From assembly GCA_937625935.1 (NCBI GenBank), contig OW569392.1, positions 265,989 through 329,988 on the forward strand: a stretch of 64,000 nt of DNA, written 5' to 3'. The notes beneath the pieces are model-generated. The model saw only the letters and a program-made list of their open reading frames with translations. It did no database searches and had not been told where the DNA came from. A program made the translations under genes and the position numbers. Position 1 is the stretch's first letter; every line of letters begins with the position of its first letter. Positions 12,976 to 64,000 of this stretch are shown here, one piece after another. Origin of the DNA: Tetramitus jugosus (Eukaryota; Heterolobosea; Eutetramitea; Acrasida; Vahlkampfiidae).

Positions 12976-13049
12976 TGCGGGTTGTGAGGATCGAACTCAC
13001 GACCTTAGGATTATGAGACCTACGCGACTACCAGCTGCGCCAAACCCGC
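12976..13049 (-). tRNA. tRNA-Met (CAT), elongator type
   Basis: On the minus strand the acceptor stem GCGGGTT pairs with AACCCGC. The D arm contains AGCTGGTAG, the anticodon loop is CTCATAA with anticodon CAT, and the T arm is GTGAG-TTCGATC-CTCAC. No intron. The A/T-rich loop context TCTCATAATC and the T-arm TTCGATC are typical of elongator tRNA-Met, not initiator (which lacks the standard T54). The 5' end of the tRNA faces the retroelement at 13095. Confidence 0.93.
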
Positions 13050-13080
13050 CTATATTTGGATGTCACCAATTTGGATATCA

Positions 13081-13094
13081 CACAGTGGTTTTGG
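13081..13094. repeat. Target-site duplication, left copy
   Basis: CACAGTGGTTTTGG is repeated exactly at 14409-14422; one extra base on each side also matches (14-16 bp). Confidence 0.88.
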
Positions 13095-13121
13095 TAAAAA
13101 ACGCAGAGAAAACGGCATCAC

Positions 13122-14270
13122 ATGTCTGGTGATTCAACAAATTTGGTGCAGGAATACGGCAACAGCCGTTATGCAGTGTGGACCACTGCACGGAAAGGCT
13201 CTAGGCCAAGTGACAGAGAGGTCGTCATTACTGGCAACGGTAATGGTGTCTCTCAGTCATCTTTGGCAAGAAAGATAGGAGAGGAGTTTGGTGACTGGCT
13301 CAACCGAGTCCAGGTCATCAAGAGGAAAGGCCAGCAACGCTTTGTTGCATGGGTGACGGTCAAGGATGACCGCATCTATGACTTTGTTGAGTTGTTCAAC
13401 AAAGAGAGGAGGATTGGCAACAGCACTGCTGCACCCAAGCGCAGTGTTGATTGCACAAGAAAGGTGGTCGTCCATGGCATGAAGAACATGTCAGTGGACG
13501 ACATCAAGAAGCTACTGGGGCCTGAGAAGGTTGCCAGTGTGCTCAAGAAGCGTGACACTGCTTTCGTGGTCATGGGTGATGAAACCTATGCACGAGCAGT
13601 GCTCAGCGGAGAGCAAAAGGTCAAGGCCACGGTCACTCGATACGTCGAGAGACCACATGATCCTCTCAAGGCTGTCAACAAGAGATTGACGAAGATGTAC
13701 GAGGAGCTGCTGACGGTGGTTGACGCACTGCGTCGACAGGTCACAGAACTCACCAAGGAATTGGCAAAGACAAAGGGTCAAGAGGGCAACAAACCGGTTC
13801 CGATACAGGAACAAGAAGTTGTACAAAGAACTGCTCCTGGTCTAATGGAGACAGAAGAACAAAGGAGTGCAACACCACTACCAACAGTGCCTGTTGTACA
13901 GCTCAGCGCTGAAAATCGGCAAATTCTGGAGCAAGTGAATGCCACTTCTCCAGTGTTCGCAAGAGTGAAGAAGGAAATTGCTGCATTGGCACTTGCTGCT
14001 GCACGCAAAAGGTATGGTTTGACTGAGGACGAACCAGTCATTGTGGATGTGGATGATGACTCCGAAAAGGAGATTCAGAGTCCACAACTCAATGACAACA
14101 AGAAGAGGAGTGCCAGGATCACACTGGGTGATCTGATGAGCAACAAGGCCCAAAACAAGAAAACAACAACAGATGGCTCTGTGTCCATCGACGGTCCTAC
14201 TACAAGGTTACGCTCTTTGATGAAGGGCATCAACCAAAACACTCACCAGAGTGATTATTCCAACCTGTAG
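13122..14270 (+). CDS. ORF1-like nucleic-acid-binding protein of the retroelement
   Basis: 382 residues, ATG only about 27 bp from the element's 5' end. I see two alpha/beta segments: residues about 17-100, then an RRM-like fold at about 110-185 (strand VVVHGM, later the RNP1-like stretch TAFVVMGDETYARAVL). A heptad-rich helix follows at about 190-230 (MYEELLTVVDALRRQVTELT), then a Pro/Glu/Gln-rich and a basic tail. RRM plus coiled coil is the build of LINE ORF1 proteins, which bind RNA and trimerise; here the coiled coil follows the RRM-like part. The reading frame is undamaged, implying recent insertion or selection. Its base composition is GC-richer than neighbouring genes. Sequence identity to a known ORF1 family cannot be judged here. 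Confidence 0.6.
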   Translation: MSGDSTNLVQEYGNSRYAVWTTARKGSRPSDREVVITGNGNGVSQSSLARKIGEEFGDWLNRVQVIKRKGQQRFVAWVTVKDDRIYDFVELFNKERRIGNSTAAPKRSVDCTRKVVVHGMKNMSVDDIKKLLGPEKVASVLKKRDTAFVVMGDETYARAVLSGEQKVKATVTRYVERPHDPLKAVNKRLTKMYEELLTVVDALRRQVTELTKELAKTKGQEGNKPVPIQEQEVVQRTAPGLMETEEQRSATPLPTVPVVQLSAENRQILEQVNATSPVFARVKKEIAALALAAARKRYGLTEDEPVIVDVDDDSEKEIQSPQLNDNKKRSARITLGDLMSNKAQNKKTTTDGSVSIDGPTTRLRSLMKGINQNTHQSDYSNL

Positions 14271-14280
14271 GTGCACCGTC

Positions 14281-14380
14281 GGGGACAACAAGAGAAGAAG
14301 AGTGAATGACGCCCTACGGGTCGTCACTCACAAAACAAGTCAATAAATGAGCAATCGTGTGCTTGCTGCGCAAGCACACA
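14281..14380 (+). other. 3' UTR stem-loops of the retroelement
   Basis: Two hairpins lie between the ORF1 stop and the poly(A): GACGCCC-TAC-GGGTCGTC extended by GAGTGA/TCACTC (about 14301-14330), and GTGTGCTTG-CTGCG-CAAGCACAC, a perfect 9-bp stem (about 14357-14380). Such structures are commonly the reverse-transcriptase recognition signal of non-LTR elements. Confidence 0.55.
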
Positions 14381-14408
14381 TGGTTGTATGGAACAAAAAA
14401 AAAAAAAA

Positions 14409-14422
14409 CACAGTGGTTTTGG
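14409..14422. repeat. Target-site duplication, right copy
   Basis: Exact copy of 13081-13094, immediately after the A14 run. Confidence 0.88.
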
Positions 14423-14597
14423 TTTTTGAGGACGGCGATGGAATGGGCGTTGTTGCGTGGTTTGGATTGTTTGTTGCCGTTTTGCAACTCTGTTGTGTCT
14501 GATGCTGTTTCAACCTTCAAACTCCGACTTGGAACGCAAAAATAAGAACAGACAGAATTCGCCGCTTGCTTGCAAACAAAAAAACACATTAACAAGA

Positions 14598-60532: not shown

Positions 60533-62569
60533 TTATTGTGGATAAACAATCATCAACTCACTCACATCGAAGCACCCAACATCACCAATCGAATATTTGT
60601 CAGCATAGACATGGTCAGCAGAACAGAATGCAATGACTCTCACCATACAACTCTTATTCTCCAAAATCCAACGTTCTAATGTGCCACAACCAATTACTCC
60701 ATTGGTATCCTTGATGAATACAGTCATGGGAATGGGTTGAGATGGTGGTGACACAGGTAGTTCTGCGTTTACATCAATTGTAGCTCTTCTTTTTGCATCT
60801 GGTTCATCATCATGCTGAGAGTTATCCACTTTGTTTCTTCTCCGTTTTCTTATCATATCCTTTCTACTAACAACTTTTGTTTGAGGTTCATCATCTTCTA
60901 AAGATTGGGATTGTTCTTGTGGTTCTGATGGAGCTTGTGTTGTTGGTTCTACTGGCCGATCTGGACTTGGTTGTACGTCTACTGGAGATTGAGATGGTTG
61001 TTGTGTTGCTGGTGGTTCTGGTTTATTGCTCTCGTACAAACCTTCAGGTTCATCAGCCTCAAAATCCTCCTCGTTGTAGCCCAGCTCATCATCATCTCCC
61101 TCAACTGGCGATGAAGGTTCAGTTCTAACATCATCACCAAAATGGAATAATCTAATGTCTCTGGCTGAATAGCATATATTGGATACAGTGTAAGGTCCTT
61201 CAATGGATTTGATACCACCAGTTGCTTGCCATTCCAGTTTGTACTTGTACAGACTTTGCCCATTAGCATCAGTTAATTCTGCTACAATTTTAGCTTTTCT
61301 CCCCCACAGGTAAGATGTGCTACTTCGATATTTGCTTGGAACACGGACTACCACTACATCATCTACTTTGAATTGAGGAATACAGTTTGGATGCTTACGT
61401 AGATATGCTGCTTGAGCTCTGTGCCCCTTTTTCTCAATTCTCTGTCTGATGAGATCAATTGTATACACCCTCTTCACTCTATCCTCAACAGATAATTCAT
61501 TTGGATTCAGACAGTAGCAAATTGACCAAGCTTCTAGTGGTTTCATACCAATGGTACTGTGCACAGCATTAAGATATGAATTGACTACAGATTCCACATG
61601 ACATTTCCATCTGGTTGTTTGATGCAATCTCATTTGTTGGAGCAACGATTTCTTCAAAGTTTGATTCAATCTCTCAACAAGACCTTGAACCCAAGGAGAA
61701 TATGCTGGTCCTTCCTTCTTCTTGACTCCATACTTCTGGCACACTTGTAATACAGATGCTGCAATAAATTCACCACCATTATCAGATCTCAAATTGATTT
61801 CATATTTACAGATACCATCTGTACCAACTTCTGGAAGATTCAATTCATTCTTAAATAAGTTCTCTAGAAACTTCACTACTGTCTCTGCCTTCTTGTTCTT
61901 AATTGAAACTACCCATGCATACTTTGTCAAGTGATCCACGACCACCAAGAGACCAATCTCTTGTCCATCTTTCTGAAGAAATGAAAGATCAATGTACAAG
62001 TGTTGAGCTGCATGATCTGGAACAACGTAACGAAATGGAGGAGCTGGAACTCGATTGATTGTTCTTCCACTTTGTGCACAATGGAGACACGAATTAACAA
62101 CTTCACTTACTTTACGTTGTACACCACCTGCCATCAGAATGAAGCTGGAATGCAGTGCTTGTTGTGTTCTTTTCTGTCCAACATGCGATCCACCGGAACA
62201 CACATGGGCTTCTTTGATTGCTGCTACTTCTTCATGATCTCTTGGGATCCAGTACCATTCTACTCCATCAGCAACTTTACCAGCATACATAGTTTCAGCA
62301 TTAAACTTTTCTGCTAACGATTCTACTTCTTTCTCTTGTTCAGTTAATGTATGTGACATACGAAACTCATCTGTCCATTTATTTACAGCATAATACAATC
62401 TTCCAGTCTCTGCAACATATTTGAATCTTGATGGTGCGTTGAGTTTACCATTTTCATAGTACTCTCTTGCTTCATTGATTGTTTTTACAGTTGGTGGTTT
62501 CTTGTTCTTCCGTCCTTTAGTACCACCTTTACGATTATTAATTGGAACTTCTGTTTCAGTCTCTGACAT
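60533..62569 (-). CDS. Integrase-type (rve) transposase of element C, intact
   Basis: 678 residues from ATG 62569 (MSETETEVPINNRKGG); the frame extends upstream to an ATG at 62701 inside the inverted repeat, which I think is not used. The basic N-terminal patch KGGTKGRKNKK is followed by an HHCC zinc module (HVCSGGSHVGQKRTQQAL...SCLHCAQSG, about 130-185), the rve core with Asp in LYIDLSFLQKDG, Asp in LRSDNGGEF and Glu in GLVERLNQTLK (DD35E), an SH3-like domain (VDDVVVVRVPSKYRSSTSYLWGRK, about 430) and a long acidic/Pro/Gln tail. Cuts and joins the element ends, by analogy with retroviral integrases and TDD-4. Related to the genes at 45.2 and 49.2 kb. Confidence 0.88.
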   Translation of the reverse strand: MSETETEVPINNRKGGTKGRKNKKPPTVKTINEAREYYENGKLNAPSRFKYVAETGRLYYAVNKWTDEFRMSHTLTEQEKEVESLAEKFNAETMYAGKVADGVEWYWIPRDHEEVAAIKEAHVCSGGSHVGQKRTQQALHSSFILMAGGVQRKVSEVVNSCLHCAQSGRTINRVPAPPFRYVVPDHAAQHLYIDLSFLQKDGQEIGLLVVVDHLTKYAWVVSIKNKKAETVVKFLENLFKNELNLPEVGTDGICKYEINLRSDNGGEFIAASVLQVCQKYGVKKKEGPAYSPWVQGLVERLNQTLKKSLLQQMRLHQTTRWKCHVESVVNSYLNAVHSTIGMKPLEAWSICYCLNPNELSVEDRVKRVYTIDLIRQRIEKKGHRAQAAYLRKHPNCIPQFKVDDVVVVRVPSKYRSSTSYLWGRKAKIVAELTDANGQSLYKYKLEWQATGGIKSIEGPYTVSNICYSARDIRLFHFGDDVRTEPSSPVEGDDDELGYNEEDFEADEPEGLYESNKPEPPATQQPSQSPVDVQPSPDRPVEPTTQAPSEPQEQSQSLEDDEPQTKVVSRKDMIRKRRRNKVDNSQHDDEPDAKRRATIDVNAELPVSPPSQPIPMTVFIKDTNGVIGCGTLERWILENKSCMVRVIAFCSADHVYADKYSIGDVGCFDVSELMIVYPQ

Positions 62570-62640
62570 TGTTTGTTTGTTGGATTGTGGTGTAACGATC
62601 ATGAGTTCTGTAACGACCTTGAAGTTTTGAAACTTTACAA

Positions 62641-62713
62641 GCGGAGATTTAGACAAGGAAGTTTCTAAATCGACATTTAGACGGCTATCGTCTAAATACA
62701 TTTAGACGCTACA
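62641..62713 (-). repeat. Right terminal inverted repeat of element C
   Basis: Inverse of 60401-60474 with a few mismatches and one indel; five ATTTAGA/TCTAAAT boxes. Confidence 0.88.
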
Positions 62714-63229: not shown

Positions 63230-64000
63230 TTGGGTTGGGTTTGGGTTTGGGTTTGGGTTTGGGTTTGGGTTTGGGTTTGGGTTTGGGTTTGGGTTTGGGT
63301 TTGGGTTTGGGTTTGGGTTTGGGTTTGGGTTTGGGTTTGGGTTTGGGTTTGGGTTTGGGTTTGGGTTTGGGTTTGGGTTTGGGTTTGGGTTTGGGTTTGG
63401 GTTTGGGTTTGGGTTTGGGTTTGGGTTTGGGTTTGGGTTTGGGTTTGGGTTTGGGTTTGGGTTTGGGTTTGGGTTTGGGTTTGGGTTTGGGTTTGGGTTT
63501 GGGTTTGGGTTTGGGTTTGGGTTTGGGTTTGGGTTTGGGTTTGGGTTTGGGTTTGGGTTTGGGTTTGGGTTTGGGTTTGGGTTTGGGTTTGGGTTTGGGT
63601 TTGGGTTTGGGTTTGGGTTTGGGTTTGGGTTTGGGTTTGGGTTTGGGTTTGGGTTTGGGTTTGGGTTTGGGTTTGGGTTTGGGTTTGGGTTTGGGTTTGG
63701 GTTTGGGTTTGGGTTTGGGTTTGGGTTTGGGTTTGGGTTTGGGTTTGGGTTTGGGTTTGGGTTTGGGTTTGGGTTTGGGTTTGGGTTTGGGTTTGGGTTT
63801 GGGTTTGGGTTTGGGTTTGGGTTTGGGTTTGGGTTTGGGTTTGGGTTTGGGTTTGGGTTTGGGTTTGGGTTTGGGTTTGGGTTTGGGTTTGGGTTTGGGT
63901 TTGGGTTTGGGTTTGGGTTTGGGTTTGGGTTTGGGTTTGGGTTTGGGTTTGGGTTTGGGTTTGGGTTTGGGTTTGGGTTTGGGTTTGGGTTTGGGTTTGG
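63230..64000 (+). repeat. Telomere, (TTTGGG)n
   Basis: Two initial 5-bp TTGGG units, then about 127 perfect 6-bp units to the end of the window. The G-rich strand runs 5'->3' toward the end, the correct polarity for a right-hand chromosome end. No interruption or variant unit after 63241. Confidence 0.95.

Follow-up and report, generated by a model that had tools for sequence, protein, structure and literature searches.

The window, by which we mean the whole 64,000-nucleotide stretch of DNA analysed, carries a retroelement of a family here termed A beside a tRNA-Met gene, the only tRNA gene that ARAGORN finds in the whole window (Table 1). The tRNA gene is on the opposite strand, 46 bp from the 5′ end of the element, close to the 45 bp or so estimated in the initial annotation. 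The target duplication, previously read as a perfect 14–16 bp, was confirmed as a perfect 16 bp, and the A14 tail and intact ORF described at the same time were both found as stated.

Table 1. The family-A element of the window and its target gene (window coordinates)
Feature	Position	Strand	Basis or remark
tRNA-Met(cat), target gene, head-to-head with the element	12976..13049	-	ARAGORN
Target site duplication, proximal copy (first A ambiguous)	13080..13095	+	
Family-A ORF1-only retroelement, full length, 1.3 kb	13096..14408	+	
ORF1-type gene, 382 aa, intact	13122..14270	+	
RRM-fold domain, residues ~28–108 (model only)	13203..13445	+	AF2 model
Second RRM-like stretch, residues 116–162	13467..13607	+	Low model confidence; alignable in other ORF1s
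Long predicted helix, residues 181–218, probable coiled coil	13662..13775	+	Model
3′ UTR; similar ones in autonomous LINEs of group IV and in one of the two from group I	14271..14394	+	
AATAAA polyadenylation-type signal	14342..14347	+	Sequence
3′ terminal stem-loop GCAATC...GGTTGT; counterpart is GCAAC...GTTGTAT of autonomous LINEs	14351..14387	+	
A14 tail	14395..14408	+	
Target site duplication, distal copy	14408..14423	+	

Elsewhere in the window, a (TTTGGG)n array at 63230–64000 reaches the contig end and is apparently a telomere. A 722-aa frame on the minus strand (60533–62701) scores above the cut-off for an rve integrase core and is apparently a piece of an LTR-type retroelement near that array.

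Predicted fold of the ORF1 protein and selection on its gene

The protein had been described from its sequence as RRM-like with a coiled-coil part. An RRM fold of the order β-α-β-β-α-β is present in the AF2 model, which bears out the first part at the level of prediction; for the second, the model offers a long helix that is a probable coiled coil. Matches of the ORF1 sequence to PDB chains were weak or partial only. An eIF4E-like fold, which occupied the top Foldseek rows, was set aside because a second aligner ranked RRMs first.

Of 36 full-length family-A copies, counting the one in the window, 34 retain an intact ORF. Over 561 pairs, mean dN was 0.028 and mean dS 0.106, giving a dN/dS of 0.265. 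The normalised ratio of nonsynonymous to synonymous variants was 0.49 for variants private to one copy, 0.31 for those in two or three copies and 0.20 for those in at least four, the difference between the private and the most widely shared class being significant (Fisher p = 0.003). Intact frames, low dN/dS and a ratio that falls with sharing together indicate selection on the ORF while the element propagates, which is what an element in need of its own ORF1 protein should show.

Copies and insertion sites across the genome

The genome searched comprises 26.35 Mb in 56 contigs. The element has at least 55 DNA matches in it (40 of 166 candidates scored), and its ORF at least 113 protein matches (108 of 351 candidates scored). 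The protein matches split into family A, with 78–100% identity to the ORF of the window, and family B, for which most values lie at 46–58%. Besides the copy in the window, 35 further full-length family-A copies were read; most counts given here rest on hand-transcribed rows. The element is therefore multi-copy, and the reading of a single-copy retrogene was rejected. Two contigs, C54 and C56, have tRNA matches at identical coordinates; they look like duplicates of one contig, perhaps an organellar one.

We read the 5′ ends of 49 family-A copies, a set that leaves out the 5′-truncated copies L073 and L074 and three N-terminus rows (C50:166991, C8:39989 and C39:343856). All 49 are accounted for: 28 lie head-to-head with a tRNA gene, 3 with a 5S gene and 2 with a degraded tRNA, and 16 are stacked behind the tail of an element of this type. 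Copies not near tRNA genes had been named earlier as a refuting observation; the copies of this set are at Pol III genes or in such stacks. The two degraded targets (L008 and L083) are weak tRNA matches covering Rfam positions 9–63 only, with both ends of the acceptor stem absent, perhaps through decay after insertion. Upstream of L073 and L074, which fall outside the 49, no Pol III gene was found within 555–613 bp.

In all 28 tRNA-adjacent copies the tRNA gene is on the opposite strand, and the 5′ end of the element faces the 5′ end of the tRNA. The genes faced are those for Met, Thr, Asn, Tyr, Lys, Asp, Val, Arg, Gln, Pro, Leu, Gly, Ser and Ala. The gap to the Pol III gene (n = 31; 28 tRNA and 3 5S) has a median of 43 bp, and 28 of the 31 gaps measure 36–48 bp, the outliers being 4, 33 and 56 bp. 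The copy at 4 bp (L068, C24:420370–422200) begins next to a tRNA-Thr gene, unlike the others. The three 5S-facing copies (L007, L049 and L057) start 40, 46 and 38 bp from genes that Rfam confirms as 5S. These gaps and orientations support the earlier proposal of a non-autonomous, protein-coding element with a TRE5-like distance and orientation. At least 47 5S genes were found in the genome, dispersed and mostly single rather than in one tandem array, so that they offer many separate targets.

Among 36 family-A copies tested, 28 have target duplications of at least 12 bp, two of which (24 and 27 bp) are padded with A; five more have just 6–8 bp, and in L002, L044 and L054 no duplication was found. 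Fifteen of the tandem copies were identified by pattern as starting just past another element's poly(A) tail and one (L079) by eye; in six of eight tandem copies tested the duplication is shorter than 9 bp or absent.

Family B has the same placement. Of 20 family-B 5′ flanks, 16 have an opposite-strand tRNA upstream, and the remaining four (L086, L090, L102 and L104) begin behind the tail of another element. Among 15 copies covered together with their ORF, 14 give a frame of 370–419 aa, several being cut by the edge of the stretch read.

Autonomous LINEs as candidate helpers

The RVT_1 profile has 73 matches in the genome. At one locus (L043) a tRNA-Glu gene is followed by a LINE whose ORF1 lies in two frames and which has an ORF2 frame of 1293 aa and a poly(A) tail, and then by a family-A copy; the start of this LINE resembles that of family A by eye. 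Its ORF2 scores above cut-off for RVT_1 and Exo_endo_phos, and that of L022 above cut-off for RVT_1 and below it for Exo_endo_phos_2. A candidate zinc-finger-like motif in the LINE ORF2s scored 18.4 and 23.1 bits with zf-RVT, below the cut-off of 27.5. In nine other LINEs the ORF1 frame is open; an opposite-strand tRNA lies upstream of eight and was not found upstream of the ninth (L110).

A reverse-transcriptase domain lies 2.3–3.0 kb downstream of ORF1 at 25 of 28 autonomous-type places versus none of 81 family-A or -B places, in a comparison of 28 chosen autonomous-type rows with 81 of the at least 113 protein matches, pieces without an N-terminus being excluded. This agrees with the initial annotation, which saw no reverse transcriptase in the element. 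At five of the 81 places a reverse transcriptase lies 3.4–4.3 kb downstream, in three of them (one on contig C42, two on C12) with an autonomous ORF1 in between.

The autonomous LINEs of this genome resemble family A in having a homologous ORF1, the same kind of target, the same orientation and the 3′ stem-loop; they differ in carrying ORF2 and in the sequence of ORF1. Over the whole alignment, family-A ORF1 is 27–30% identical to six LINE ORF1s of groups I, II and IV and 21–23% to three of group III. Over matched stretches the range is 27–48%, most of groups I, II and IV lying at 37–40% and group III at 27–32%.

This homology bears on the reading of the element as a processed retrogene, repeatedly copied from a host gene through LINE machinery. 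The poly(A) tail, the AATAAA signal and the lack of a reverse transcriptase would suit such an origin, but the ORF is homologous to LINE ORF1s, the copies have a common 5′ end, a common target and purifying selection, and an intron-containing parent was not seen among the matches listed. We regard a retrogene as highly improbable.

The motif GCAAC-loop-GTTGTAT precedes the tail in all 11 autonomous LINE loci examined, and the same outer stem is present at the 3′ ends of both ORF1-only families, with an inner hairpin in addition; the motif was searched for as a pattern rather than found blind. Covariation in the stem is slight: the core pairs barely vary, and of 15 distinct ends 11 form a sixth pair. 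When the family-A 3′ UTR was compared with 11 LINE 3′ ends, only 0–1 of 200 shuffles scored as high for six of them, namely all three of group IV, one of the two of group I, L123 and L124. The others gave 5–7 of 200 (two ends), 33 of 200 (one) and 91 and 146 of 200 (both ends of group III). The family-B 3′ UTR, whose tail is readable in two copies, clearly matches one LINE end, L124 (0 of 200), followed by L116 (4 of 200). A longer, reverse-transcriptase-encoding element, which the initial annotation proposed to look for, was found, but its ORF1 is clearly different. A TATGG end like that of group III suggested that family A had switched helpers, an idea we abandoned since the remainder of the 3′ UTR fits group IV and not group III.

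Two exact tail patterns occur 139 and 78 times in the genome, against 1 and 0 for the reversed-pattern controls, and many of these 217 matches fall outside known ORF1 copies. Among six tails read at five loci, no ORF1-less SINE with the same tail was found, an element that would have shown ORF1 to be dispensable in cis; five are LINE 3′ ends. The sixth, L128 (C5:7700–8320), consists of about 10 bp of LINE-type 3′ end and an A tail, close to sequence that resembles a tRNA by eye although ARAGORN finds none there; L128 is perhaps an extremely 5′-truncated insertion.

Proposed mobilisation, site choice and descent

Taken together, the element is probably an ORF1-only, non-autonomous non-LTR retrotransposon that lives as a parasite of LINEs. 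Since LINEs upstream of tRNA genes have a homologous ORF1 and the same 3′ stem-loop, mobilisation of family A in trans by LINE ORF2 is likely, as judged from sequence. In the scheme we propose, translation of the family-A mRNA would yield an ORF1 protein of RRM type, probably with a coiled coil, that would bind RNA and, given the selection on its gene, act mainly on its own RNA. This RNA would end in the stem-loop and poly(A) common to the resident APE-RT LINEs, whose ORF2 would reverse-transcribe it in trans. Position and the TRE5-A precedent suggest that the complex is directed to a place immediately ahead of tRNA and 5S genes, contact with TFIIIB being the probable guide. Target-primed reverse transcription at the site would then leave a duplication and an element whose 5′ end points at the Pol III gene, and repeated insertion at one gene would build tandem stacks. 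Duplications (mostly 12–19 bp), 5′ ends facing Pol III genes and tandem stacks are all observed. From the poly(A) junction, the first strand would be nicked about 30 bp upstream of the tRNA, where the duplication has its tRNA-proximal end.

ORF1 itself may do the targeting. The stronger statement of the initial annotation, that such an element would show ORF1 alone to guide targeting, is not borne out, because the LINEs that probably supply ORF2 also lie head-to-head upstream of tRNA genes; with this position common to LINEs and family A, positions cannot tell ORF1 from ORF2 in site choice. It is conceivable, though rather unlikely, that the endonuclease and reverse transcriptase of LINE ORF2 pick the site and that family-A ORF1 is kept solely as a cis-acting RNA-packaging protein. 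The tRNA genes upstream of eight of the nine LINEs with an open ORF1 frame would fit this, as would LINE copies without their 5′ part (L044 and L130) that are also at tRNA genes. So would LINE-type tails at 5S genes: within 6 kb they lie upstream and head-to-head at 14 of 47 genes, versus 1 in the same orientation and 4 downstream, in a comparison covering the 117 of 178 listed tails on contigs with a listed 5S gene (the other 61 are not on such contigs) and with one tail common to two neighbouring 5S genes. Against it stands, indirectly, the analogue TRE5-A, whose ORF1 is reported to interact with TFIIIB subunits (PMC5911963).

Known elements provide close parallels. TRE5 insertions are described as lying upstream of tRNA genes at about 44–54 bp, oriented opposite to the gene, and 37–41 bp upstream of 5S genes (PMC5911963), and the main TRE5-A site, at 47 bp, as lying just upstream of the TFIIIB-covered stretch (PMC5391098). 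TRE5-A.2 of Dictyostelium discoideum is a natural ORF1-only form, apparently mobilised in trans by the ORF2 of TRE5-A.1 (PMC5391098). As these sources describe TRE5-A and TRE5-A.2, they match family A in the ORF1-only form, the place upstream of tRNA genes, the 5′ end facing the tRNA, the use of 5S genes and the tandems (PMC5391098, PMC5911963). The likeness to TRE5 is drawn from position, orientation and gene content as described, not from sequence, and TRE5 is not named among the 120 matches listed for the LINE ORF2 search. TRE5-A.2 is given as a TRE5-A.1 derivative without ORF2, whereas family-A ORF1 is far from every autonomous ORF1 read and there are two families; because no autonomous ORF1 read is nearly identical to it, family A is not a TRE5-A.2. 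Mammalian HAL1 (half-L1) is likewise ORF1-only, is thought to need ORF2 in trans and has long kept its coding capacity, and the part of PMC3627910 drawn on here mentions no Pol III targeting for it. NLTR-B of Polysphondylium pallidum, a non-LTR element 39–64 bp upstream of tRNA genes, differs in that its own ORFs encode APE, RT and RNase H (PMC5911963). The new class anticipated in the initial annotation is therefore not one, TRE5-A.2 (PMC5391098) and HAL1 (PMC3627910) being ORF1-only already; by analogy, family A would work like both. What appears new is the host, probably not a dictyostelid, together with the pairing of an RRM-type ORF1 with targeting to tRNA and 5S genes, and the diversification of an ORF1-only lineage. 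The enolase of the genome has 7ugh as its best PDB match (602.8 bits, the next reaching 400.7); 7ugh is from Naegleria fowleri, so the host might be a heterolobosean. A literature search at record level found no earlier report of such elements in such hosts.

As to descent, 12 ORF1-only proteins (five of family A, four of family B and the database relatives P0003–P0005) are separated from the nine autonomous ORF1s sampled by a branch that has 99/99 support, or 100/100 without the distant group III, in an unrooted tree for which treekit gave a long-branch warning. The three relatives come from contigs of 1.3–1.9 kb, so P0004 and P0005 are only putatively ORF1-only. Family-A and -B ORF1s occupy more places than autonomous-type ones (at least 81 vs at least 28). 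We tentatively entertain a long-lived, independent, self-targeting parasite lineage of at least two families, with its own selected and far-drifted ORF1, combining packaging and Pol III targeting in one protein and borrowing only the copying enzyme. Somewhat less probable to us is that, in place of one old lineage, families A and B arose separately by deletion from autonomous LINEs whose full-length forms have died out in this genome or escaped sampling. The small number of autonomous ORF1s in the tree, the limited candidates scored in the genome searches, the missing root and the long-branch warnings leave room for separate origins, but the placement of A, B and the three relatives on one side of that branch and the inner hairpin common to the 3′ loops of A and B argue against them.

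If the host is not a dictyostelid, as its enolase suggests, this genome would provide one more, remote example both of LINEs directed to a fixed distance ahead of tRNA and 5S genes and of ORF1-only elements that behave likewise. Because A, B and the four autonomous groups share a kind of target while their ORF1s differ (21–53% identity to A), the residues conserved among them form a comparative map for possible binding to the Pol III machinery. The system makes it testable which LINE protein, ORF1 or ORF2, selects the site.
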